A stretch of DNA of 64,000 nt from Rhizobium sp. BT04. Its GTDB lineage: Bacteria; Pseudomonadota; Alphaproteobacteria; Rhizobiales; Rhizobiaceae. Within the stretch, counting starts at the first letter, position 1; each line of letters begins with the position of its first letter. The notes under the pieces are model-generated. The model was not told the origin of the DNA. It ran no database searches and saw nothing but the letters and a program-made list of their open reading frames with translations. A program made the position numbers and the translations under genes. This document shows, in pieces, positions 3,472 through 47,825 of the stretch. The stretch is taken from contig NZ_CP125652.1 in NCBI RefSeq assembly GCF_030053135.1, positions 4,582,501-4,646,500 of the forward strand, written 5' to 3'.

Positions 3472-5727
3472 ATGGGACAAGAGATTTTGCCGCCTTCCGG
3501 CGGAGACGACGACAACATCCAGCCGGTCGACCTGAAGGCGGCGCTCGAGCAGCGCTATCTCGCCTATGCGCTGTCGACCATCATGCACCGCGCTTTGCCT
3601 GACGTGCGCGACGGGCTGAAGCCCGTTCACCGCCGCATCGTCTATGCGATGAACGAGATGGGGCTGAGGCCGAATACAGCCTTCAGGAAATGCGCCAAGA
3701 TCGTCGGCGAAGTGATGGGTAACTACCATCCGCACGGCGACCAGTCTATCTACGATGCGCTTGCTCGTCTCGCCCAGGATTTCTCGCAGCGCTACACGCT
3801 GGTCAACGGCCAGGGCAATTTCGGCAATATCGACGGCGACAGCCCTGCCGCCATGCGTTACACGGAATCGAAGATGACGGCGGTCTCGGAACTGCTGCTC
3901 GAAGGCATCGATCAGGATGCCGTCGATTTCCGTGATACTTACGACGAATCGAATACCGAGCCGGTCGTCCTTCCCGGCGCCTTCCCGAACCTGCTCGCCA
4001 ACGGCTCCTCCGGCATCGCCGTCGGCATGGCAACCTCGATCCCGTCGCACAATGCCCACGAGCTTTGCGATGCCGCCCTGCATCTGATCAAGCATCCCGA
4101 TGCGACGGTCGAAAAGCTGGTTGAATTCATTCCCGGCCCGGATTTCCCCACAGGCGGCATCATCATCGACAGCCGCGACAGCATCATCGAGAGCTATCGC
4201 ACCGGTCGCGGTGGTTTCCGCGTGCGGGCGAAATGGCAGACCGAAGATCTCGGCCGCGGCGGCTACCAGATCGTCATTACCGAAATTCCCTTCCAGGTGC
4301 AGAAGTCGCGGCTGATCGAGAAGATTGCCGAGTTGCTGATCGCCCGCAAGCTGCCGTTGCTCGAAGATATCCGCGACGAATCGGCTGAGGACATCCGCGT
4401 CGTTCTGGTGCCGAAGACGCGCAGCGTCGATCCGACCATCCTGATGGAATCGATGTTCAAGCTGACGGAGCTGGAAAGCCGCTTCCCGCTCAACATGAAC
4501 GTGCTGTCCATGGGCCGCATCCCGCGGGTGATGGCGCTGAACGAGGTGCTGAAGGAGTGGCTGGATCACCGCCGCGAGGTCCTGCAGCGCCGCTCGCGCT
4601 TCCGCCTGGCGGCGATCGACAGACGCCTCGAAATCCTCGGCGGTCTTCTGGTCGCCTACCTCAACATCGATGAGGTCATCCGCATCATCCGCGAGGAAGA
4701 CGAGCCGAAGCCGGTCATGATGGCGCGCTGGGATCTGACCGACAATCAGGTCGAGGCGATCCTCAACATGCGGCTGCGCGCCTTGCGCAAGCTGGAAGAG
4801 TTCGAGATCCGCAAGGAGTTCGACGAACTCACCAAGGAAAAGGGCGAGATCGAGGCGCTGCTTTCCTCCGACGACAAGCAGTGGCAGACGGTCGCCTGGG
4901 AAATCGGCGAAGTGAAGAAGAAATTCGCCAAGGCGACCGAGGTCGGCCGCCGCCGCACCCAGTTTGCCGATGCGCCCGAAGCCGACGAGGAAGCGATCCA
5001 GCAGGCGATGATCGAGAAGGAGCCGATCACCGTCGTCATTTCCGAAAAGGGCTGGATCCGCGCCCTGAAGGGGCATATCGCCGATACGGCGACGCTGACC
5101 TTCAAGGAGGGCGACGGCTTGAAGCTGGCCTTCCCGGCGCAGACGACGGACAAGATGCTGATCGTCACGACAGGCGGCAAGGCCTTCACGCTCGGTGGCG
5201 ACAAGCTGCCGGGCGGTCGCGGCCATGGCGAACCGTTGCGCATCATGGTCGACATGGACAACGACCAGGCGGTGCTGACCGCATTCGTCCACGATCCCGC
5301 GCGTAAGCAGTTGATCGTTTCCACTGCCGGCAACGGCTTCGTCGTTGCTGAGGCCGAACTGGTCGCCAATACGCGCAAGGGCAAGCAGATCATGAATGTG
5401 GCGCTGCCCGAGGAAACCCAACTGCTCGTGCCGGTCGGTGGCGATCATGTCGCCGTCGTCGGTGAAAACCGCAAGCTGCTGGTCTTCCCCTTGGCGCAGG
5501 TGCCGGAAATGTCGCGCGGCAAGGGCGTGCGTCTGCAGCGCTACAAGGATGGCGGCATTTCCGACGTCCGCTGCTTCGCGATATCAGACGGCCTCTTCTG
5601 GGAAGACAGCGCCGGCCGCACCTTTACCAAGAACAAGGACGAGCTTGCCGAGTGGCTGTCCGACCGCGCCACCGCCGGCCGCACCGTGCCGAAGGGTTTC
5701 CCGCGCAGCGGCAAATTCGCCGGCTGA
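3472..5727 (+). CDS. parC: DNA topoisomerase IV subunit A
   Basis: Topoisomerase IV breaks and passes duplex DNA to decatenate daughter chromosomes; ParC provides the cleavage subunit. At 751 residues it is ParC-sized rather than GyrA-sized. The quinolone-region helix ([15 protein letters not shown], about 83-97) and the catalytic tyrosine Y130 in AAMRYTE are intact. The C-terminal half has beta-pinwheel repeats without a clear GyrA box, which favours ParC over GyrA. Residues 1-20 form a short acidic extension. It is the only gene in its transcription unit; parE is not in the window. Confidence 0.95.
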
Positions 5728-5882
5728 GGCACAAATTCCGCGCTCGGCCCTTGGCGGGCGCGGGAACTCCTCTATTTCATTATTGTTACCAAAAATAGGA
5801 GAAGGCCGCTTCCGAGGCTGGCGGAATGGCCGGAGTTTACGTTCGCCTGGGAGAGGCGCACGCCGTTACCGGAGGAAAATCG

Positions 5883-6341
5883 ATGCCCGCCAGCACCATC
5901 AAATTGCATGTCAGCCACACCTACAGGGTGCCGCCCGCGGTCGTCTACGATGCCTGGCTCAACCCCGAAATCGCCCGCCGCTTCCTGTTTGCCACCGATG
6001 ACGGTCACGTCATCCGCGCCGATATCGATCCGCATGTCGGCGGCCGTTTCTTCGTCGTCGACCGCCGCCCGACCGGCGACGCCTTTCACCAGGGTGTATT
6101 CCTGGAACTGAAGCGCCCGCAACGCATGGTCTTCAGCTTCTCCGTCGAGGAGCACGACCACAATTGCGACCGTGTCGAAATCGACATCGAGCCTCTCGGA
6201 GGCGGCAGCCGTCTGACGCTGACCCATGAAATGTGCGCCGAATGGGCCGAACACGAGGAAAAGACCCGGCAAGGCTGGGCGCATGTGGTCGAAGGGCTGG
6301 GCAGGGAACTGGAGCAGCAGCAGTTCAAGGCGACGGGTTGA
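5883..6341 (+). CDS. SRPBCC (AHSA1/START-like) domain protein
   Basis: 152 residues. The pattern HTYRVPPAVVYDAWLNPEIARRF at the start, VGGRFFVVD in the middle and the C-terminal helix QGWAHVVEGLGRELEQQ match the SRPBCC hydrophobic-pocket fold of the AHSA1 type. The ligand is unknown. The start at 5883 has an excellent ribosome site (CCGGAGGAAAATCG) just upstream, preferred over an upstream in-frame ATG at 5826. Its 3' end nearly meets the convergent doc gene at 6325, overlapping by about 17 bases. Confidence 0.85.
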   Translation: MPASTIKLHVSHTYRVPPAVVYDAWLNPEIARRFLFATDDGHVIRADIDPHVGGRFFVVDRRPTGDAFHQGVFLELKRPQRMVFSFSVEEHDHNCDRVEIDIEPLGGGSRLTLTHEMCAEWAEHEEKTRQGWAHVVEGLGRELEQQQFKATG

Positions 6342-6720
6342 GCACTATGCTGAAATCCCGAAGGAAGCGGGTCGCACCCTCTTCGTCGATCTCGCCGGCG
6401 GCGACGGCAAGAACGAAGGCGTAGAGATTGGCATCGGTCGTTTCGATCTCGTAGCCGTTTTCGAGAAGGAACACACCGGCGGTGACGATCGCTATCCGCT
6501 TGTTGCCGTCGACGAATGCGTGGTTGCGGGCAAGGCCGAAAAGATATGCGGCGGCGAGTTCGATGACGTCGTCGCAGCCGCAATTTGCCTTATGCATCGG
6601 CCGGCCGACAGCAGATTCCAGCGCGCCTTCATCACGCAGTCCTGCGAGACCGCCGAACCGCTCGATCTGCATTTTCTGCAGGCTCTCCACCAATGGTCGC
6701 GTCAGGAATTTGAAGGCCAT
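6325..6720 (-). CDS. doc: Doc/Fic family toxin
   Basis: 131 residues with the Doc signature HAFVDGNKR at 67-75. Known Doc proteins phosphorylate elongation factor Tu and arrest translation. Upstream helices (RPLVESLQKMQIERFGG, LRDEGALESAVGRP) match the family N-terminus, and the length is typical. The start codon overlaps the stop of the upstream antitoxin gene by one base (TAATG), implying translational coupling. The active site appears complete, so the toxin is probably functional. Confidence 0.9.
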   Translation of the reverse strand: MAFKFLTRPLVESLQKMQIERFGGLAGLRDEGALESAVGRPMHKANCGCDDVIELAAAYLFGLARNHAFVDGNKRIAIVTAGVFLLENGYEIETTDANLYAFVLAVAAGEIDEEGATRFLRDFSIVLNPSP

Positions 6721-6941
6721 TATTCGGCCAGCTTTTTCAAGGCGACCTTATACTTGTCCATGAAATAACGCGCCGCCTCGAGCTGACGGGACAAATCCTC
6801 ATCGGCGGGTTTCAAGGTGATGCCGCCGTTCTCCAGCTGCAATTCCACTGAGTCGCCTGTCTTCAATCCAAGACGGTCGAGAGCTTCCTTCGGGATGATA
6901 ATGCCCTCGGAATTGCCGATCTTGCGGATTGTGACGTTCAT
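6720..6941 (-). CDS. AbrB/MazE-type antitoxin paired with Doc
   Basis: 73 residues. The N-terminal swapped-hairpin DNA-binding domain reads VTIRKIGNSEGIIIPKEAL, then LGLKTGDSVELQLENGGITLKP. The C-terminal helix (LSRQLEAARYFMDKYKVALKKL) would wrap the toxin. The ATG at 6941 is chosen because homology starts there; the upstream extension is low in similarity. A palindrome at 6959-6971 lies just upstream and is the likely autoregulatory site. Classical Doc partners are Phd-type; here the DNA-binding fold is AbrB-type. Confidence 0.85.
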   Translation of the reverse strand: MNVTIRKIGNSEGIIIPKEALDRLGLKTGDSVELQLENGGITLKPADEDLSRQLEAARYFMDKYKVALKKLAE

Positions 6942-6958
6942 GGCTTTTATCCTCTGTG

Positions 6959-6974
6959 ATAACGGCGTTATAAC
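6959..6974. promoter_or_regulatory. Palindromic operator candidate of the antitoxin-doc operon
   Basis: ATAACGGCGTTAT (6959-6971) is an inverted repeat overlapping the perfect palindrome GTTATAAC (6967-6974). It is 18 bases before the antitoxin start, where autorepression by a toxin-antitoxin complex would act. Inferred from position and symmetry only. Confidence 0.5.
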
Positions 6975-6999
6975 ATGAGGCTGCGCAAGCGACAACGTC

Positions 7000-7884
7000 T
7001 TAGCCTGCCAGTTGCCTGATGTTTTTCCTACGCACCATCCAAGCAGAATGCGCTGCGATTGCAACCACCAGGATGCCGCCGCCGACGAGCGTCATCGTCG
7101 CCGGCGTTTCGGCAAAGATCAGCCAGACCCAGATCGGCGCGAGCACCGTTTCCAAGAGATAGAACATGCCGACTTCAGGCGCCGAGAGATAACGCGGCCC
7201 TGTCGCCAGGCACCAGAAGGCGACCGGCATCATGATGGCGCCATTGAAAAGGATCCAGCCGGGATGGGCGATGGCAAGCCCTGAGGGCAGGGCTTGCGTG
7301 AGGCCGAGTGCCGCCGGCAGGATGGCGGCCAGCAGCGGTACGAAGCCCATTTCCCGGCGCGAGGCACGCCCTACCGTGATGGCTGCGGCAAGAATAAGTG
7401 CGCTGAGAAGCGCCATGGCGTCGCCAAAAACATGACCGCTCGCAAGCCCCTGGCGCACGATCAGCCCGACGCCCGAGATCATGAACAGCATGGCGATCAG
7501 CGTTGCGGGCCGCGGCTTCTCCTTGAGGAAAATCCAGGAAAGAAGCGCAGCGAACATCGGGTTGAAGGCGACGATGAAGACGACATTGGCTGTGGCCGTG
7601 TTGAAGACTGAAAGCACGAAGGTGAGGGACGAGATGCCGTAGAGCAGGCCGGCGATTAGGCCGGCTCGCCCCGGAACGAGGATCGGCCATTTGCCCGAGG
7701 CAACGCGCATTGCTCCCAGGATGACGAATGTGGCGAGAACCGTTGCAGCACTGCGTATTCCCAGGATCGACCAGATGTCGCCATCGCCGAGACGGACGAG
7801 CGGGATATCCATGGAAAGCGCCAGCCCGCCGACCGCCGTCAGCAGCAGACCCTTCCGATGATCGGAAAGAGCGATGGGGAACAT
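7000..7884 (-). CDS. EamA/DMT-superfamily transporter
   Basis: 294 residues with about ten hydrophobic segments in two repeated EamA halves, the inner-membrane drug/metabolite transporter layout. GLTQALPSGLAIAHPGWILF and the preceding helices mark the second half. The substrate is unknown. The ATG at 7882-7884 is 2 bases from a palindromic element at 7887-8239. The likely ribosome site (AGGAAAGG on the minus strand, about 7891-7898) lies inside that element's terminal repeat. Confidence 0.85.
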   Translation of the reverse strand: MFPIALSDHRKGLLLTAVGGLALSMDIPLVRLGDGDIWSILGIRSAATVLATFVILGAMRVASGKWPILVPGRAGLIAGLLYGISSLTFVLSVFNTATANVVFIVAFNPMFAALLSWIFLKEKPRPATLIAMLFMISGVGLIVRQGLASGHVFGDAMALLSALILAAAITVGRASRREMGFVPLLAAILPAALGLTQALPSGLAIAHPGWILFNGAIMMPVAFWCLATGPRYLSAPEVGMFYLLETVLAPIWVWLIFAETPATMTLVGGGILVVAIAAHSAWMVRRKNIRQLAG

Positions 7885-41391: not shown

Positions 41392-41455
<64 letters not shown>

Positions 41456-41468
<13 letters not shown>

Positions 41469-41497
41469 TTTATCCCCTTGAAATCCCAGTCAAAAAT
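41456..41497. repeat. Left direct repeat (attL-like) at the tRNA-Pro 3' end
   Basis: 42 bases starting in the T-arm and acceptor of tRNA-Pro. The same 42 bases, with five differences, are at 47784-47825 in the same orientation. All five differences are transitions. This is the usual layout of an island integrated at a tRNA 3' end. Confidence 0.7.
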
Positions 41498-41939
41498 GAT
41501 GAATTGGCCGGAAGGCCACTAGCAAAATTAGAACTAAAGCATATAAAATGCTAATCTCGTAACGAAAATCCCCGGATAATCCTCTTATCGTTATGGGTGC
41601 CCAATCAAGTCTCGTTGGGGACATGAGCCCGCTTGGGAACATATCGGAAGCATCGTCCGGGGAAGTGTCTATGGAATGCAGCATCCACAATTGTGGGGTA
41701 GGTTCTGCGGCACCGACATTGCAGTGAGTTTCTCGCAGTTATATTTAGCCTATTGTAGGCGGGAAGGCTTTCTAGCCGGAAGGTGAGATGGCGGTCCTGT
41801 CCAGATCTATAGTTAAGCCATCTAATGAGTGCGTACCCGGCGAGTTGGTACACCTCGGAATTCTCCGGTTAGGAGTGACGTCGCAGCAATAAATGCTCCC
41901 GACGAAAGAAGGCCGCCCTGCAGATCGAGGACGATCGCC
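41498..41939. other. Island left flank without a recognisable gene
   Basis: About 440 bases, AT-richer than the chromosomal DNA around it. No integrase, tRNA or known gene is visible. A weak minus-strand ORF (41490-41690) has no supporting features. Confidence 0.4.
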
Positions 41940-42350
41940 ATGGCTAATTTTTACTATGTGTATTTCAAAAAGCGCGATGACGCTGAGATCAAGAAAGCTT
42001 TTGGCAAGGCCCTTGATTGGTATCGGATAGATACTACTACCTATTTCCTCTATTCCACGAGCGTCGCAGAAAAGCTGTATTCGCGCTTTTCGCCCTTCGT
42101 ACTCGATGAGCGAGGTAAGGAAGGGAACATTTTATTTGCAATTGATGTGAAAGAGCGGCCAGGGTGGGAGTGGCTGAAAAAGATCAATGCCCATTGTTAT
42201 CGTAGCTTCTCCGTCCGCACCAGTTACGACGTCAACCGCGCACTAGATGTTTCCCTGTTGGCCGTCGCTCGTGAGTGCTCTCGACCAGATGCATTGATTT
42301 CTCATGCGAAAAGCTTCCCTTTTCCGAGCCCCATCTTTGCAAGAGCATAA
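41940..42350 (+). CDS. Small orphan protein, possibly Cas2/SinR-like fold
   Basis: 136 residues from the ATG at 41940. The order of strands and helices (NFYYVYF, DDAEIKKAFGKALDWYRI, TTYFLYSTSVAEKLYSRF, NILFAIDV) resembles the ferredoxin-like core of Cas2/SinR/VapD proteins. This is a visual guess. No RBS is obvious. It sits alone at the left of the island; no CRISPR or partner gene is next to it. Confidence 0.5.
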   Translation: MANFYYVYFKKRDDAEIKKAFGKALDWYRIDTTTYFLYSTSVAEKLYSRFSPFVLDERGKEGNILFAIDVKERPGWEWLKKINAHCYRSFSVRTSYDVNRALDVSLLAVARECSRPDALISHAKSFPFPSPIFARA

Positions 42351-42514: not shown

Positions 42515-44221
42515 ATGTTGCGTGCCTGTAGCGTTTTTCTTTTTGGATATTTGATGGGCGTGACCGCGGCCGCCGCACAAACGACTTGCGTCGACGGAGG
42601 ATCACCTTCCTGGAAGGGTTTGAATCTTATTCAAACGGATTGCCAAAACTGGAAGGACGGCTACGTACCACCGTCCGGACAAATCTACGTGGCCCTGCAA
42701 TTCCATTTCGTTCTCAAAAGCAAACCGGTCGGGTCAGCGGAGAGCAGGAGCGTTCTTGACGCGCTTAAAAGTCTGGTCACCAAGGACGACGCACAAGAGA
42801 TCGCGCTCTCGGTTCTGCCGAAAATCGGCAACTATGACTCGGTTGAAACCCCAATCTATACCTACGTCGCGAGCAAGCCGGAGCGGACCTTTGGAACATC
42901 TGGCCAATTCGAATTCACGACGCCCTATATACGATATGATCAACAACCGCTGAGTTTCGTGCTCAAGGCGCGCGCGACAAGCAAGGCCGATCACGACATC
43001 AAGGGATTGATAGATCGTGTACAGCCGATTATCGCGACGGCATCGCCGAACGCCTGGTTAGTGTCCGAAGCGGCTAAGCCGGCGCTCAACGCTGTCGCGG
43101 ATGTCACTGACACGGTGCTCGATGCCTACTACAATTCCGACGAGTCAACGACCGCCAGCTTTTCACTTGGCGACGAGGCCGCCGACGGCGTGGTCAAGCG
43201 CGTACTCACATTGAAATCGGGGCAGGGTGACGCAGACATCGGAAGCCTGACCGTGTCGCTCAAAATGCGAAGGTCGATCATTGCCGGCAATTCGATATCG
43301 TCCGACAGGAGCCCAAAGGATTTGGTCGTTGACTACTCGACGGTCGGCGGGATCCTTGGATACCAACTCCCGGCGATCGGTGACAAGAAGAATACCATTC
43401 TGGGGAGCTTCGCTTCCGACGATGGCGACCTGAAGATCCTCTCTGCGGTCGCATATGAAAAGACGGCGACGACGGGGCTTTCTGATGCCTGCAGGCAATT
43501 GCGGACAATCGGGCTCAACACGTTCGGATTCAACGATATCGACACCGCCAGGATGATCTACGAACTTCTTTCGAGCGGTGAAAAGTCAGTCGCCTACACC
43601 GAAGAATCATCGGTGTGCTTCAGTAAGAGCGACTGGCAGAGAATCTCGATACATCATATCTTCGAACCGCTGGTCAACCAAACCGTACCGACGAAAGACC
43701 GCATTGAGTATTTCGCGACAGGTCTTCGTCGGGGAATGACGACAATGACGATCTATCAGGACCAGCTCGAGGACGAGATGGAGCAGGTCGAGGACATGAC
43801 GGGCGACAACCTCCTTCCGTCCTGTACGGGTTACAACGTAGCGAAAAGCGATCTGATCACCTGCCTGGATACATTCCATCTCAACCGCTACCAGATCGAA
43901 ACATCGGACGAGTCACCAGTCCAGATCCTGGTTAGCCGTCGCTCTCAGGTTGGCGAGGTAGCCAACGCCGACACGCGCTCCGGTGTGGAAGTGGCGGCGG
44001 TGGGAACGCCGGTTTCGGCATCCACGACAACCAAACTGGATTATGTCTATCGGGTTTCCCTGTTCTACAGCGACACGCAGAAGATCCGACGGATTAAGTT
44101 CGAGAAAGCCACACGTGCCAGTGTCGGCGACGATGTCACCGATAAGCTTTCATATCCTTGCTGGGTTAAAGGCAAGGGGCAGCCGCTTACTTGCCCGGAC
44201 TTGATACCTCCGCCCTCCTGA
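42515..44221 (+). CDS. Island cassette gene 1: exported protein of unknown function
   Basis: 568 residues from ATG 42515, with GAGGGGGCG upstream. Sec signal peptide VFLFGYLMGVTAAAAQT (cleavage about residue 22). The mature part contains four or more cysteines (TTCVDGG, LIQTDCQNW, SVCFSK, LPSCTGYN) consistent with periplasmic disulphides. No known domain. It is the first of three same-strand genes, 57 bases before the lipoprotein gene. Expression context is unknown. Confidence 0.7.
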   Translation: MLRACSVFLFGYLMGVTAAAAQTTCVDGGSPSWKGLNLIQTDCQNWKDGYVPPSGQIYVALQFHFVLKSKPVGSAESRSVLDALKSLVTKDDAQEIALSVLPKIGNYDSVETPIYTYVASKPERTFGTSGQFEFTTPYIRYDQQPLSFVLKARATSKADHDIKGLIDRVQPIIATASPNAWLVSEAAKPALNAVADVTDTVLDAYYNSDESTTASFSLGDEAADGVVKRVLTLKSGQGDADIGSLTVSLKMRRSIIAGNSISSDRSPKDLVVDYSTVGGILGYQLPAIGDKKNTILGSFASDDGDLKILSAVAYEKTATTGLSDACRQLRTIGLNTFGFNDIDTARMIYELLSSGEKSVAYTEESSVCFSKSDWQRISIHHIFEPLVNQTVPTKDRIEYFATGLRRGMTTMTIYQDQLEDEMEQVEDMTGDNLLPSCTGYNVAKSDLITCLDTFHLNRYQIETSDESPVQILVSRRSQVGEVANADTRSGVEVAAVGTPVSASTTTKLDYVYRVSLFYSDTQKIRRIKFEKATRASVGDDVTDKLSYPCWVKGKGQPLTCPDLIPPPS

Positions 44222-44278
44222 CGCGCTCTAGCCATTAACTGCTAATATCGCGTTCGAACTTGGGATTGTGGGGGTCTC

Positions 44279-45523
44279 ATGCGTTTCAAACTGCTTGCTG
44301 TTCTTCTTTGCTGCTCGTTTGTTGTCTCCGCATGCACGCAGGGCGTGGTTGATACATACGGCGGGGGCATCGGTACTGAGCTTTCCTACACTACTATGGG
44401 GCAGCGCAGCGCCGCCGAGGACAATTACGTAGCGTTCATATGCCGGCAATCTGGCTCAGCGCCAGGTATCTGTTCAGTTGATTGGCAAGGCTTTACGCTT
44501 GCCGGGATGAACGACATCGACGCACGTTGCGACGGTTACCTGGCGTGGCTCGACAACCGCCGCCGCACAAATGGTCCCATACAAAAGCAAATCGCGGATA
44601 CCGCCACCACAACAGCCACGATAATGGCAGCCACGGGTGCTACTGGAGCTGCCATAGGGATCGTCGCTGCAGCCTTCGGATTTGCGCGAAATAGCTTTGA
44701 CAACACTCAATCTCGGCTCCTGATGGAAGTGAACCACTCGACGGTCCAGACGATCGTGCTGTCGAATCAGGAGCGTTTCCGGAAGGAGTTTGCACTTGTT
44801 CGCGTCGAGAACCGTCCGACTGCAATCTACGTGCTGCGTCAATATCTGCGCCTTTGCATGCCCTATACGATCGAGAACCAGATCAATACGACGATCACCA
44901 CTTACCAGCTTGGCGGCACGCGAGCCCTGGAAAGCGCAGAAAAAACGCCGCTGATCGATCTGGCGTTTCTGCGGCGGGAGTCGCTCAAACCCGAGAGGGC
45001 GGTCTATCGGCCGCCGAACCCTCCCATCGATAATAACGCAAAGTACGAGCTGGTATCGACGAAGGCGAGCCTGCGTTCGACGAAGCTCATCCAGAGCGCA
45101 CTGACCGCGATTTGCGCTTCCCCAGAGGAGGTCGACAATCCCACGCCGCACACCGTCGTGCTCGTCAAAGTGTTGCAGCAGTATAGGAAGATCAGGAAAT
45201 CCATTCCAGGCAAAGTCCTCGACGGCAAGATGGACGATGGCGATTTAGCCGAGGTTGCCGACCAGCCACCTTGCTCACTTTCAACGGCTCAAAATTTCTA
45301 TGAACAGAAAGCCTACCCGTCTGGGATCATGAGCGCGAGCAACAGTCTGATCGAACTCCTCAATGCACGCCTTGCAGTGGCGGACCGACTGCCGGCCGGA
45401 GCCGACGAGCAGACGATCCGCGCCGGCATCGCGAAGGTGCGCGCCGATCCGAGCCTGAGTCTTGAACTCAATGATCCGGCGCTATCCAAACAATTGACTG
45501 CAGAACTCATCGATAAACTTTAA
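44279..45523 (+). CDS. Island cassette gene 2: lipoprotein with a glycine/alanine-rich membrane segment
   Basis: 414 residues. Signal LLAVLLCCSFVVSACTQG with the lipobox VSAC (C near 19). A hydrophobic stretch ATIMAATGATGAAIGIVAAA lies at about residues 108-127, suggesting a second membrane contact. The rest is polar with several helical blocks (IRKSIPGKVLDGKMDDGDLA). No domain recognised. It lies 10 bases before the hydrolase gene, so co-expression is very likely. Confidence 0.7.
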   Translation: MRFKLLAVLLCCSFVVSACTQGVVDTYGGGIGTELSYTTMGQRSAAEDNYVAFICRQSGSAPGICSVDWQGFTLAGMNDIDARCDGYLAWLDNRRRTNGPIQKQIADTATTTATIMAATGATGAAIGIVAAAFGFARNSFDNTQSRLLMEVNHSTVQTIVLSNQERFRKEFALVRVENRPTAIYVLRQYLRLCMPYTIENQINTTITTYQLGGTRALESAEKTPLIDLAFLRRESLKPERAVYRPPNPPIDNNAKYELVSTKASLRSTKLIQSALTAICASPEEVDNPTPHTVVLVKVLQQYRKIRKSIPGKVLDGKMDDGDLAEVADQPPCSLSTAQNFYEQKAYPSGIMSASNSLIELLNARLAVADRLPAGADEQTIRAGIAKVRADPSLSLELNDPALSKQLTAELIDKL

Positions 45524-45533
45524 GGGGGCTGTG

Positions 45534-47300
45534 ATGGTTTATGCCGCGGATGGTATTAAGCCGGTCAGGGCAATGCCTGAACCGGATGCAGGTCGGCTCG
45601 CGCGCGTGGGGCCGGGCGAAAAGCTTTTCGGCACAGGTAAGACTGTTGCCGGCGCGACGCAGAACGATCCACCCCAGTGGATTGAGGTGTTTCTTCCCGA
45701 CGACAAAACGACCGGGTGGATCCTCGCTGTCGATTTCAAGGAGGAGCCTGACCCAGCTCCCCGTCCCCTCGATGAAGAGTTTTTCATCCGAAGCTGTCTG
45801 ACTGTTGAGCGGGAACTCAACGCCGATACCAAGACCGCACCGTGGTATGTCGCTGCCGATTATCTGATCGCGCGCGCGATCTTTGAAACAGGCCTCTCCG
45901 CAGGTGGCGTGGGCTCGGCCGGGCCGATGGGACCGCTCGCTCTCACTTCGACGGAGTTCAGCGATTTCCTGACGTCGTCTGGTCTAGACCTCGCGAAAGA
46001 ATTCGGTCCGGGTGACAGCCGATTGCTGCTAGCTCAGATATTCGCCTGCGGATACGCCATGAGCAAGACGGCCAAGGACTTCAGCAAGGCGAGCACCGCG
46101 AGGAGCAATCCCGTCAACGATGTCGATGTCCCGAGTTATCTGGATCTCTTTCTCGCTTACCTCATCGATCTAAGCACAGCCGTGGCTCTATCCGATCCAG
46201 TGTTGGACAAGTCGCAAACGTTGGCTCAGTTTGGTCTCACGAGCGCGACTATTTCTGCCCTCTCGGAACGATCGGGTCTCGCTGGAACGAAACCAGACAC
46301 TACGGTTTCCGCGTTCCTTAAGAACGTCTCCGAAGTGCTCGCCCGTCTGCTCGACTCTGCATTCGACCGTATTAAAACCCTGGCGGCTGATGAGTTGCCT
46401 AAGGCCGAGGCGGGCGTTCCTCCATGGTTGATGATCGCGCGATCTGAACTGGCGCGGCCCGTAAGTGAAACGGTGAACGCAGACCGGATTCCGGTATATT
46501 TCGATGCAATCAGATTCGGAAACATCAACGGCAAGGTACCACATTGGTGCGGGGCATTCATCGGCTTCTGCATGAAGACTTCAGGAGCAAGCCTACCTGA
46601 CGGGCCAGCCCGCGCGGCAAACTGGAAGACTTGGGGTAACCGCAGCTTTCCGCTTGGTGCATCGGACATTCCGTTGGGCGCTGTTGTCGTTTTGAAGCCC
46701 CAGGACCCCAAGACAAGTGGGCACGTCGCGTTCTTCGAGAAGTTCGCGGAAAACCGGAAAGTGGAATTGCTCGGAGGCAATCAGGACGATCAGGTCTCGC
46801 AGAAGCCGTTTGCCGTGACGGAAATTTCGGCGATACGAATGCTGGCCGAGGATCTTCCGTTTGGAGCGGCCGATGCCTTCGACATGACGAAGGCTGAGGT
46901 CAGGGCGGAGTTCCAGCGATACGGTGATCTCATCGTTGATAGATTCAAGCGAGCGGGTTTCAATACGCGACATCAACTGGCGGCGGCGTTGGCAAACGGG
47001 ATAAGGGAGTCTGGCTTAAATCCCAGGGCAGTATCCGCTCCTCCGGAAAAGAGCTTCGGACTCTTCCAATGCAATCAGACAGCGGGTCTGGGAAAGGGGT
47101 ACTCTGCTGAGCAACTCATGGACCCGGACCACAACATTGCGTTGATCATTGCCGAGGCCCGGCGGTCTCGTTCGTTCGTTTCAGCATCGACGCTCAAAGA
47201 CGCTGTTGAGGCATTCGTGAGATATGTAGAGCGCCCGAAAGACACGTCGGGAGAGATCGACAAGCGAATGGCCATAGCGGGCCGATTGCTCGGAGCGTGA
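45534..47300 (+). CDS. Island cassette gene 3: multidomain peptidoglycan hydrolase
   Basis: 588 residues from ATG 45534 (AAGGGGG upstream). No signal peptide. Apparent domains: SH3b-like (about 10-70); a lysozyme/transglycosylase-like fold at about 105-210 with ARAIFETGL (E118) and AGPMGPLALTSTEFSDF; a CHAP/TIGR02594-type endopeptidase at about 295-430 with WCGAFIGFC (C339) and SGHVAFFE (H397); and a phage-tail-type lysozyme domain at about 455-588 with GIRESGLNP (E492). Domain calls are by motif and spacing only. It is a phage-like or effector-like enzyme. Confidence 0.75.
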   Translation: MVYAADGIKPVRAMPEPDAGRLARVGPGEKLFGTGKTVAGATQNDPPQWIEVFLPDDKTTGWILAVDFKEEPDPAPRPLDEEFFIRSCLTVERELNADTKTAPWYVAADYLIARAIFETGLSAGGVGSAGPMGPLALTSTEFSDFLTSSGLDLAKEFGPGDSRLLLAQIFACGYAMSKTAKDFSKASTARSNPVNDVDVPSYLDLFLAYLIDLSTAVALSDPVLDKSQTLAQFGLTSATISALSERSGLAGTKPDTTVSAFLKNVSEVLARLLDSAFDRIKTLAADELPKAEAGVPPWLMIARSELARPVSETVNADRIPVYFDAIRFGNINGKVPHWCGAFIGFCMKTSGASLPDGPARAANWKTWGNRSFPLGASDIPLGAVVVLKPQDPKTSGHVAFFEKFAENRKVELLGGNQDDQVSQKPFAVTEISAIRMLAEDLPFGAADAFDMTKAEVRAEFQRYGDLIVDRFKRAGFNTRHQLAAALANGIRESGLNPRAVSAPPEKSFGLFQCNQTAGLGKGYSAEQLMDPDHNIALIIAEARRSRSFVSASTLKDAVEAFVRYVERPKDTSGEIDKRMAIAGRLLGA

Positions 47301-47476
47301 TCAAGGCATGAGGCCGCGGACCGGTGCGCCGAAACCTGCTGGTCGTACAGTTCGATATTTTTGTAACCACGAGCTGCGCACTCTGAAGACGGCCACTAGG
47401 CAGGGACCGCCCAACACAGCGGCTTCCCTCAGTCTCAGGAATATCGCAAGGCGGCCAAACCCGCCAATTTATGAGT

Positions 47477-47772
47477 TTATGGCGGCCAGAGAATGAGTTG
47501 GAGTCGCTCAGTCTGCAGGTCGACCGCATTCTCAAGCGCGGATAGGAGGGTGACGCCCAGCAGGCGGACGTCTTTGCCGTGAAAGACGGGCTTGAGCAGA
47601 AGGTACACAATCTGCTCAAATCGCCCGCTGATGTCAGCGGGCGTTCACTGGTTCTTGTCCATGTAATCTGGGTGAAGTCGACGTATTGCACCGTCAACGT
47701 TACCGTCTTCGCCCTAGTGGCGCTGATCTCACAATAGCGCCAGACCTTGGCAATTAGCGGCCGCAGACTGTC
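47477..47772 (-). pseudogene. dinB (DNA polymerase IV) C-terminal fragment, frameshifted
   Basis: Reading the minus strand from about 47772, residues SLRPLIAKVWRYCEISATRAKTVTL...SERPLTSAG match the little-finger domain of DinB. One frameshift then leads to FEQIVYLLLKPVFHGKDVRLLGVTLLSALENAVDL...LQLILW, the family C-terminus, ending at TAA near 47477-47479. Only about 100 of some 400 residues are present. It lies beside the right direct repeat, so it is an old remnant inside the island. Confidence 0.8.
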
Positions 47773-47783
47773 AGAAGGGTCCT

Positions 47784-47825
47784 GTCGCCTCGACCATTTA
47801 TCCTCTTGAAATTCCAATCAGAAAT
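47784..47825. repeat. Right direct repeat (attR-like)
   Basis: 42 bases matching 37 positions of 41456-41497, in the same orientation. It lies immediately upstream of the dinB fragment's translated part and just before the methyltransferase gene. Confidence 0.7.

Follow-up and report, generated by a model that had tools for sequence, protein, structure and literature searches.

A lipoprotein gene and a gene for a signal-less, multidomain peptidoglycan hydrolase form a conserved pair, carried on a tRNA-Pro island in Rhizobium sp. BT04

How does a peptidoglycan hydrolase that lacks an export signal come to be encoded directly behind two exported proteins, and which of the three genes belong together? 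The question is raised by a locus of Rhizobium sp. BT04 within the stretch analysed here, which comprises 64,000 nucleotides (contig NZ_CP125652.1, positions 4,582,501 to 4,646,500) and is hereafter called the window. The nearest named proteins assign the host chromosome to Rhizobium, in the leguminosarum/ruizarguesonis group. Three consecutive genes on the + strand, termed g1, g2 and g3, are separated by gaps of 57 and 10 bases. Our comparison showed that the conserved unit is the g2-g3 pair and not the trio, since all 26 full-length g3 loci detected have an adjoining g2, 12 of 16 loci found via g2 have a wall-related neighbour, and g1 is rare. The three genes and their parts, in positions of the window, are the following:

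42515..44221, + strand: g1, Sec-exported protein of 568 residues, no known family, rare accessory
44279..45523, + strand: g2, lipoprotein of 414 residues, with a conserved helical core (residues 20-215), a hydrophobic segment (115-133) and a helical C-terminal domain (251-413)
44621..44677, + strand: hydrophobic, Gly/Ala-rich segment of g2 (residues 115-133), placed by the model where two long helices meet in a turn
45534..47300, + strand: g3, signal-less multidomain peptidoglycan hydrolase of 588 residues
45534..45749, + strand: SH3b-like beta domain of g3 (residues 1-72), seven strands in the model; weak SH3_3/SH3_4 matches in related proteins
45768..46355, + strand: transglycosylase-like domain of g3 (residues 79-274), with candidate catalytic Glu118
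46401..46847, + strand: NlpC/P60-CHAP (TIGR02594-like) domain of g3 (residues 290-438), with Cys339, His397 and Asn416
46884..47297, + strand: Phage_lysozyme2-like muramidase domain of g3 (residues 451-588), with Glu492

A previous sequence-only reading had described three same-strand genes with these gaps, and this arrangement was confirmed. Its account of the single proteins also held. Specifically, g1, which it took to be Sec-exported, begins with a signal-like segment; g2, read as a lipoprotein with an extra membrane segment, has a lipobox and a second hydrophobic segment; and g3, read as lacking a signal peptide, has no hydrophobic segment near its start. The proposed domains of g3 (SH3b, transglycosylase-like, CHAP/TIGR02594-like and lysozyme-like) are backed by profiles, by an AlphaFold model and by structure matches. 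A start-proximal hydrophobic segment is absent in 50 of 51 g3 homologues as well. The candidate catalytic residues are conserved: Cys339, His397 and Asn416 are present in all 51 aligned homologues, Glu118 in 50 (the remaining one has a gap) and Glu492 in 41. In structure comparison the domain folds match phiKZ gp144 and the phi29 tail enzyme (3csq/3csr). According to both the model and the structure matches, the lysozyme-like domain extends to the last residue, and no further Pfam family was detected in g3 at E-values up to 1, nor any PAAR or Rhs domain. Enzymes of this type bear scattered names in databases, such as "TIGR02594 family", "cell wall hydrolase" and "phage tail tip lysozyme".

Concerning g2, a lipobox-like motif was found in 114 of 120 relatives with a loose pattern, and alignments of the core contain strongly conserved NDIDxRCDxYxxWLD and RxYLRLCMPxTIE-like motifs. 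The model (predicted local distance difference test score 84, predicted template modelling score 0.49) is almost entirely helical; a 50-residue helix turns back inside the hydrophobic segment into a second long helix, and the C-terminal domain, also helical, is predicted with confidence. Searches for similar structures with this model gave no significant match. No family model of Pfam, PHROGs or NCBIfam scored above cut-off for g2, nor did Pfam when run likewise on 88 relatives, and the hydrophobic segment had no holin or spanin match in the three collections. At E-values up to 0.1, two of the 88 relatives match PG_binding_1 and one matches PG_binding_3, a weak hint that the C-terminal domain may bind peptidoglycan.

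The pairing was studied from both sides. A scan with the g3 alignment, covering one genome per species in 84,980 species, returned 35 loci; because the scan patterns lie in CHAP, relatives without this domain are invisible to it. In 26 of these loci the match extends outside CHAP, and without exception a g2 homologue lies immediately ahead of g3 in the same orientation; the remaining nine are matched in the CHAP region only and lack g2. The 26 loci belong to Bradyrhizobium, Rhizobium, Mesorhizobium, Labrenzia/Roseibium, Pseudolabrys, Tateyamaria and other genera. From the other side, 16 loci were found via g2 alone, five of which (L012, L015, L017, L020 and L024) recur in the set of 26; in 12 of the 16, the gene immediately after g2 encodes a wall-related or g3-type domain. 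The partners there are g3-type enzymes, a Phage_lysozyme2 protein with a weak CHAP match (L131), a protein with Hydrolase_2 and DUF2272 (L137), a CHAP protein (L133), an SH3/PG-binding protein that is not certainly a cutter (L134) and a long protein with the N-terminal part of g3 (L135). In L132 the PG_binding_1 protein is the second gene down, the first having ankyrin repeats and a weak DUF5675 match. The same locus (L132:6171-8398) has a tandem of g2-type lipoprotein genes, the two sharing 4 bases, ahead of the ankyrin-repeat and PG_binding_1 genes.

Altogether 42 distinct loci were counted (the window, L108, L111, L172-L174, L009-L034, L131-L137 and L144-L146), with near-duplicate and refetched loci excluded. 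In 38 of them the gene directly downstream of g2 lies on the same strand and has a g3-type, SH3b or peptidoglycan-related domain. Apart from L132, the exceptions are L136 (trigger factor 236 bases on), L173 (contig end) and L174 (none). In L032 an opposite-strand open reading frame (ORF) is listed as the next gene after g2, and g3, split in two pieces, was seen separately; g2 of L017 and g3 of L030 are also split, and in L172 g3 is visible for its first 105 residues only. The pair is sporadic in distribution: g2 was found in 13 of 397 genomes of the order and in three of 385 of the class, the genome of BT04 being counted in each. The sequence-only reading had also proposed an effector with an exported partner, and as a layout, g2 beside g3, this is conserved across distant genomes.

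The genome of BT04 holds a second pair of the g2-g3 type on the same contig (C6:142,023-144,365), its g3 without the CHAP module. It is followed (L144:8024-13506; C6 about 142,000-147,500) by genes for a Sec-type protein of 184 residues and two proteins with membrane-like segments (450 and 409 residues), at gaps of 1 to 2 bases or with a short overlap; the latter two have no Pfam match over cut-off, and genes of similar size are present in L146. A plasmid of R. ruizarguesonis TA1, typed as conjugative, encodes a lipoprotein-like ORF and a CHAP-less g3 (L113:5517-18351), then another protein with a lysozyme-like match and a C25 peptidase; with an L,D-transpeptidase-like protein, a chitosanase and a caspase family protein encoded on the opposite strand, these make up a cluster of hydrolases. 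Both lysozyme-like genes are also found on a plasmid of R. leguminosarum Gr 12/7 (L130).

The first gene follows another pattern. Protein searches gave 10 relatives of g1, and among 200 genomes it is present in its own and in one other, of the Sinorhizobium sp. B11 type (L143); it is found in none of the 26 full-length g3 loci. On these counts the trio is rejected as a conserved system, which is how the sequence-only reading had grouped the genes. As for the adjacency of homologues, whose complete lack that reading had set as the point that would count against it, the adjacency of g2 and g3 stood and that of g1 largely fell. At L143:8669-12536 the g1 homologue precedes a signal-less protein that matches Peptidase_C1 and, below threshold, an alpha/beta-hydrolase family, so here too an exported protein stands before a signal-less hydrolase; g2-g3 were not present in the 19 kb inspected around it. 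On plasmid pRlX3 of R. ruizarguesonis, where the g2-g3 stretch has 84% DNA identity over 3.1 kb, only the start and the final bases of g1 are left as a remnant ahead of g2, and next to g3 a different g1 (46% identity) is encoded in convergent orientation. Two metagenomic contigs (of lengths 8786 and 6033) probably hold g1, g2 and g3, as judged only from the same-sized contigs of the hits. Given its rarity in genomes, the remnant and second copy on pRlX3 and the two metagenomic contigs, g1 is an accessory with some attachment to the g2-g3 pair.

Comparison of the enzymes revealed module exchange. In the CHAP-bearing g3 family, the part after CHAP is Phage_lysozyme2, Hydrolase_2 or one of several types without a Pfam name, so that a constant part, transglycosylase-like (SLT-like) plus CHAP, is joined to a variable third module, as in polymorphic toxins. 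Glu118 is replaced in eight of 11 other aligned partner enzymes (R in L131, L135, L144, L145 and L146, Q in L137, S in L031, L in L028) and kept in those of L133, L010 and L015; the transglycosylase-like half is probably not catalytic in some members. Distances between g2 and g3 were correlated for 26 of 29 loci, L017, L031 and L032 being dropped for not having exactly one g2 and one SLT-like plus CHAP gene call. The C-terminal part of g2 follows the transglycosylase-like domain (r 0.87; partial r 0.60 given CHAP and g2 core) and CHAP (r 0.80), and the third module to a lesser degree (r 0.55; partial 0.23 given g2 core and CHAP). For the g2 core, the values are 0.69 with CHAP, 0.64 with the transglycosylase-like domain and 0.43 with the third module. 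Since g2 distances track the two constant domains more than the third module, the data fit a g2 that is matched to the constant part of g3.

In the window, the three genes lie on a small island, the further features of which are the following:

41392..41468, + strand: tRNA-Pro (ggg), integration site of the island (ARAGORN); same tRNA at the site in relatives
41451..41497, + strand: left copy of the 47-bp direct repeat that flanks the island, covering the tRNA 3' end and adjoining bases, 41 of 47 bases matching the right copy
41829..42350, + strand: small ORF of 173 residues (or about 136 from the ATG at 41940), without Pfam or PADLOC match
47197..47817, - strand: dinB-like relic at the island's right end, a fragment similar to the C-terminal portion of a Y-family polymerase (PF11799 IMS_C, E-value 4.3e-5)
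47779..47825, + strand: right copy of the 47-bp direct repeat

The repeat spans the 3' end of the tRNA-Pro gene and recurs at the right end, and the 6.3 kb between its copies comprise the small ORF, g1-g3 and the dinB-like fragment. The shorter form of the small ORF may resemble small ferredoxin-like proteins. Among 40 other genomes searched, five (G005, G007, G012, G017 and G023) have the flanks adjoining with a single copy of the repeat, and this empty site was examined in detail for G007 and G017. In these features the segment agrees with a tRNA-integrated island. Its G+C content of 55.1% is lower than that of the 10-kb flanks (64.9% and 58.5%), and no ORF tested between the repeats matched an integrase. 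Based on the repeat at the tRNA, the empty sites in relatives and this missing integrase, the island was probably gained by tRNA-targeted integration, with an integrase that acted in trans or has since been lost. At the same tRNA-Pro, G011 carries a different insert of about 6 kb (L161:2943-8763) with sulfatase and FGE-type genes, and the site looks like an insertion hotspot.

Elsewhere, the neighbours of the pair vary by clade: clpB (Bradyrhizobium-type), uvrB (Roseibium-type) and M23 peptidase genes recur and the rest is mixed. Neighbours were surveyed as 130 ORFs from 34 loci (125 of 132 picked, plus five more of L028), and statements on them refer to the 25 commonest families. On pRlX3, traA and a type IV secretion system (T4SS) coupling-type gene lie near the pair; conjugation was considered as an explanation and set aside, as no such family is among the commonest of the neighbours elsewhere. 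The island has no T4SS locus, T4SS families not having been searched genome-wide. About 10 kb from the pRlX3 pair there are two giant adjacent genes of 7,470 and 7,710 bases (NZ_CP140843.1:60826-76029).

What might the pair do? We give an even chance to the reading that the pair, mobile and polymorphic, consists of a peptidoglycan-hydrolase effector (g3) and a lipoprotein (g2) that confers immunity, because the Xanthomonas T4SS wall effectors usually show this arrangement, with a lipoprotein gene immediately preceding that of a wall enzyme without signal peptide. According to the cited passages, the immunity gene of these effectors usually lies directly upstream, is probably co-transcribed and encodes a periplasmic lipoprotein (PMC6536674, PMC10933484); X-TfeXAC2609, a signal-less lysozyme-like effector, reaches the periplasm of its own cell without a signal, by a route that this study leaves unexplained, and damages the cell unless its lipoprotein inhibitor is present (PMC10933484). 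By analogy, g3 would be made in the cytoplasm as an SH3b protein with a transglycosylase-like domain, a cysteine peptidase or amidase (NlpC/P60-CHAP) and a swappable third cutter, here a muramidase, and would harm a cell only once in a periplasm, which it might reach by contact-dependent delivery, by release on lysis or by a leak into the periplasm of the producer. The lipoprotein g2 would protect the latter by binding the constant part of g3, and possibly also the wall through its C-terminal domain; g1 would be an optional exported accessory, perhaps a second partner. Toxicity of g3, immunity given by g2 and binding between the two are what we infer, and the pair would probably serve in fighting other bacteria.

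The likeness to X-TfeXAC2609 and its inhibitor X-TfiXAC2610 lies in the signal-less, lysozyme-like g3 and the lipoprotein gene directly upstream of it. However, g3 has several cutters and ends in the lysozyme-like domain, which leaves no room for the XVIPCD tag, and therefore it is not filed as a member of the X-Tfe group; g2, the model of which is helical, is likened to X-Tfi by layout only. Polymorphic toxin systems (PMC3482391) share the conserved part, the exchangeable cutter and the neighbouring partner gene, but g3 has two or three cutters, its partner is upstream and it has no known trafficking domain.

Several observations weigh against this effector-immunity reading. Immunity proteins usually diverge together with their toxin, yet enzymes as different as those of L131, L134 and L137 are accompanied by a conserved g2 core; this is the strongest point against plain immunity, and such constancy suits an adaptor or anchor as well. 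Additionally, one lipoprotein would need to neutralise up to three catalytic domains. Three of the 16 loci found via g2 have no partner (a copy with an internal stop beside trigger factor, a copy at a contig end and a distant relative). Joint inheritance alone would also raise the correlations reported above, in which near-duplicate loci remain among the 26 pairs, and the g2 core is correlated a little more closely with CHAP than with the transglycosylase-like domain. A delivery system accompanying the pair was not detected, and VipA, the sheath protein of the type VI secretion system (T6SS), is absent in 13 of 20 g2 carriers (21 genomes were searched, one having g1 only). Finally, a phage-like or integrative element houses at least one of the pairs, as in L028 of Tateyamaria (5024-7853) a serine integrase (PHROG 95, E-value 4.9e-82) and a terminase-like protein (PHROG 2666, E-value 1.9e-7) are encoded directly upstream of g2; transposase fragments are found downstream of that pair.

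The rival that survives best, still unlikely in our opinion, is an envelope maintenance pair, in which g2 would sit in the outer membrane as a lipoprotein and serve to anchor, time or activate g3 in the wall of its own cell, for example during growth, division or the passage of large structures. It would account for the conservation of the g2 core beside different hydrolases, for the PG_binding matches of g2 relatives and the divergence of g2 with the constant part of g3, and the frequent position beside clpB or uvrB is one that a stably kept gene might have. A housekeeping enzyme would be widespread, however, whereas the pair is rare and in BT04 lies on an island, and g3 has no visible export signal.

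More speculative, and somewhat less probable, is the idea that the g2 family is a new envelope adaptor. A lipidated helical hairpin with a hydrophobic tip might receive, hold or carry signal-less SH3b/transglycosylase-like enzymes across the envelope, and the pair would then be a self-sufficient device for wall attack that needs no known secretion system and is spread on islands by an integrase in trans.

Next in order we place, as doubtful, a domesticated phage lysis or self-sacrifice module, with g3 as an endolysin acting from within and g2 disrupting a membrane or bridging membranes, so that infected or chosen cells lyse. The phage-like folds of g3 are in keeping with it, as are the predicted position of the second hydrophobic segment of g2 between two long helices, the integrase and terminase-like genes of L028, and the defence genes near some pairs (McrBC-type genes at a distance of about 3.5-7 kb in R. 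etli, and SIR2 at about 8 kb on pRlX3). It is opposed by the lack of a recognised holin or spanin among the commonest neighbour families, from which a single gene could escape, by the lack of a PADLOC match for the 10 proteins tested, and by structure searches with g2 that gave nothing significant.

An orphan T6SS cargo effector with an immunity lipoprotein, delivered by the strain's own T6SS, appears about as doubtful. The genome of BT04 encodes two VipA and three VgrG-like proteins, all on contigs other than that of the pair. In the cited passages, TIGR02594 domains occur in T6SS effectors of Stenotrophomonas (PMC13340143, PMC13055248) and effectors with two peptidoglycan-cutting domains are known, among them the WHIX "double-blade" effectors (PMC12135965); the likeness consists of more than one wall-cutting domain, or a TIGR02594 module, together with an adjacent partner gene. 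In contrast, VipA is present in only seven of the 20 g2 carriers and VgrG-like genes in seven of 20 genomes (19 g2 carriers and the g1-only one), lacking in the other 13 and never on the contig of the pair, in assemblies that are mostly fragmented; Hcp and PAAR were not searched genome-wide. No VgrG gene was seen beside the pair, and g3 itself lacks PAAR and Rhs domains. With VipA and VgrG-like genes in few carriers, and viral and phage matches limited to the CHAP region and its surroundings, neither a T6SS nor a tail-like particle with a VgrG-type hub is a general route.

Very improbable is a proper component of a phage tail or tail-like particle, and the tail-derived structure that the sequence-only reading had named as a possibility found no support. 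It was favoured by the matches of g3 to PHROG 1259 and Phage_lysozyme2 and by the R. ruizarguesonis copy annotated as "phage tail tip lysozyme". However, 39 loci on viral contigs match g3 only within residues 263-456 (the scan patterns themselves lie in CHAP), and none of 321 matching phage records covers over 80% of it, so that no full-length relative was found in either. One contig of a viral collection carries g2, and no structural gene was evident among its ORF starts, read by eye only; the island ORFs of the window likewise include no phage structural gene. No tail cluster was seen beside the pair in the neighbour survey, where PHROG tail and endolysin families have three members each, the same number as M23 peptidases, which presumably cause these matches. 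Compared with the phi29 and phiKZ gp144 enzymes, whose likeness lies in the folds of individual domains, g3 has extra domains, a dedicated lipoprotein partner and no tail cluster around it. Equally improbable is an adjacency merely inherited without a functional link, which would also give correlated distances, but the pairing persists in different neighbourhoods of several genera and g2 is found beside different hydrolases as well.

Returning to the effector and its lipoprotein partner, the layout of g2-g3 looks like that of a known kind, in what appears to be a previously unrecognised family; in the literature searched, no paper was recognised as describing the pair. In Alphaproteobacteria, mostly Hyphomicrobiales, the analysis delimits a so far unnamed family of lipoproteins associated with multi-cutter peptidoglycan hydrolases. 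The occurrence of one pair on a 6.3-kb island with known empty sites offers a natural comparison of genomes with and without it. If these enzymes are effectors, they would be weapons without a visible launcher, and the route by which signal-less wall hydrolases reach the periplasm would become testable in easily grown rhizobia.

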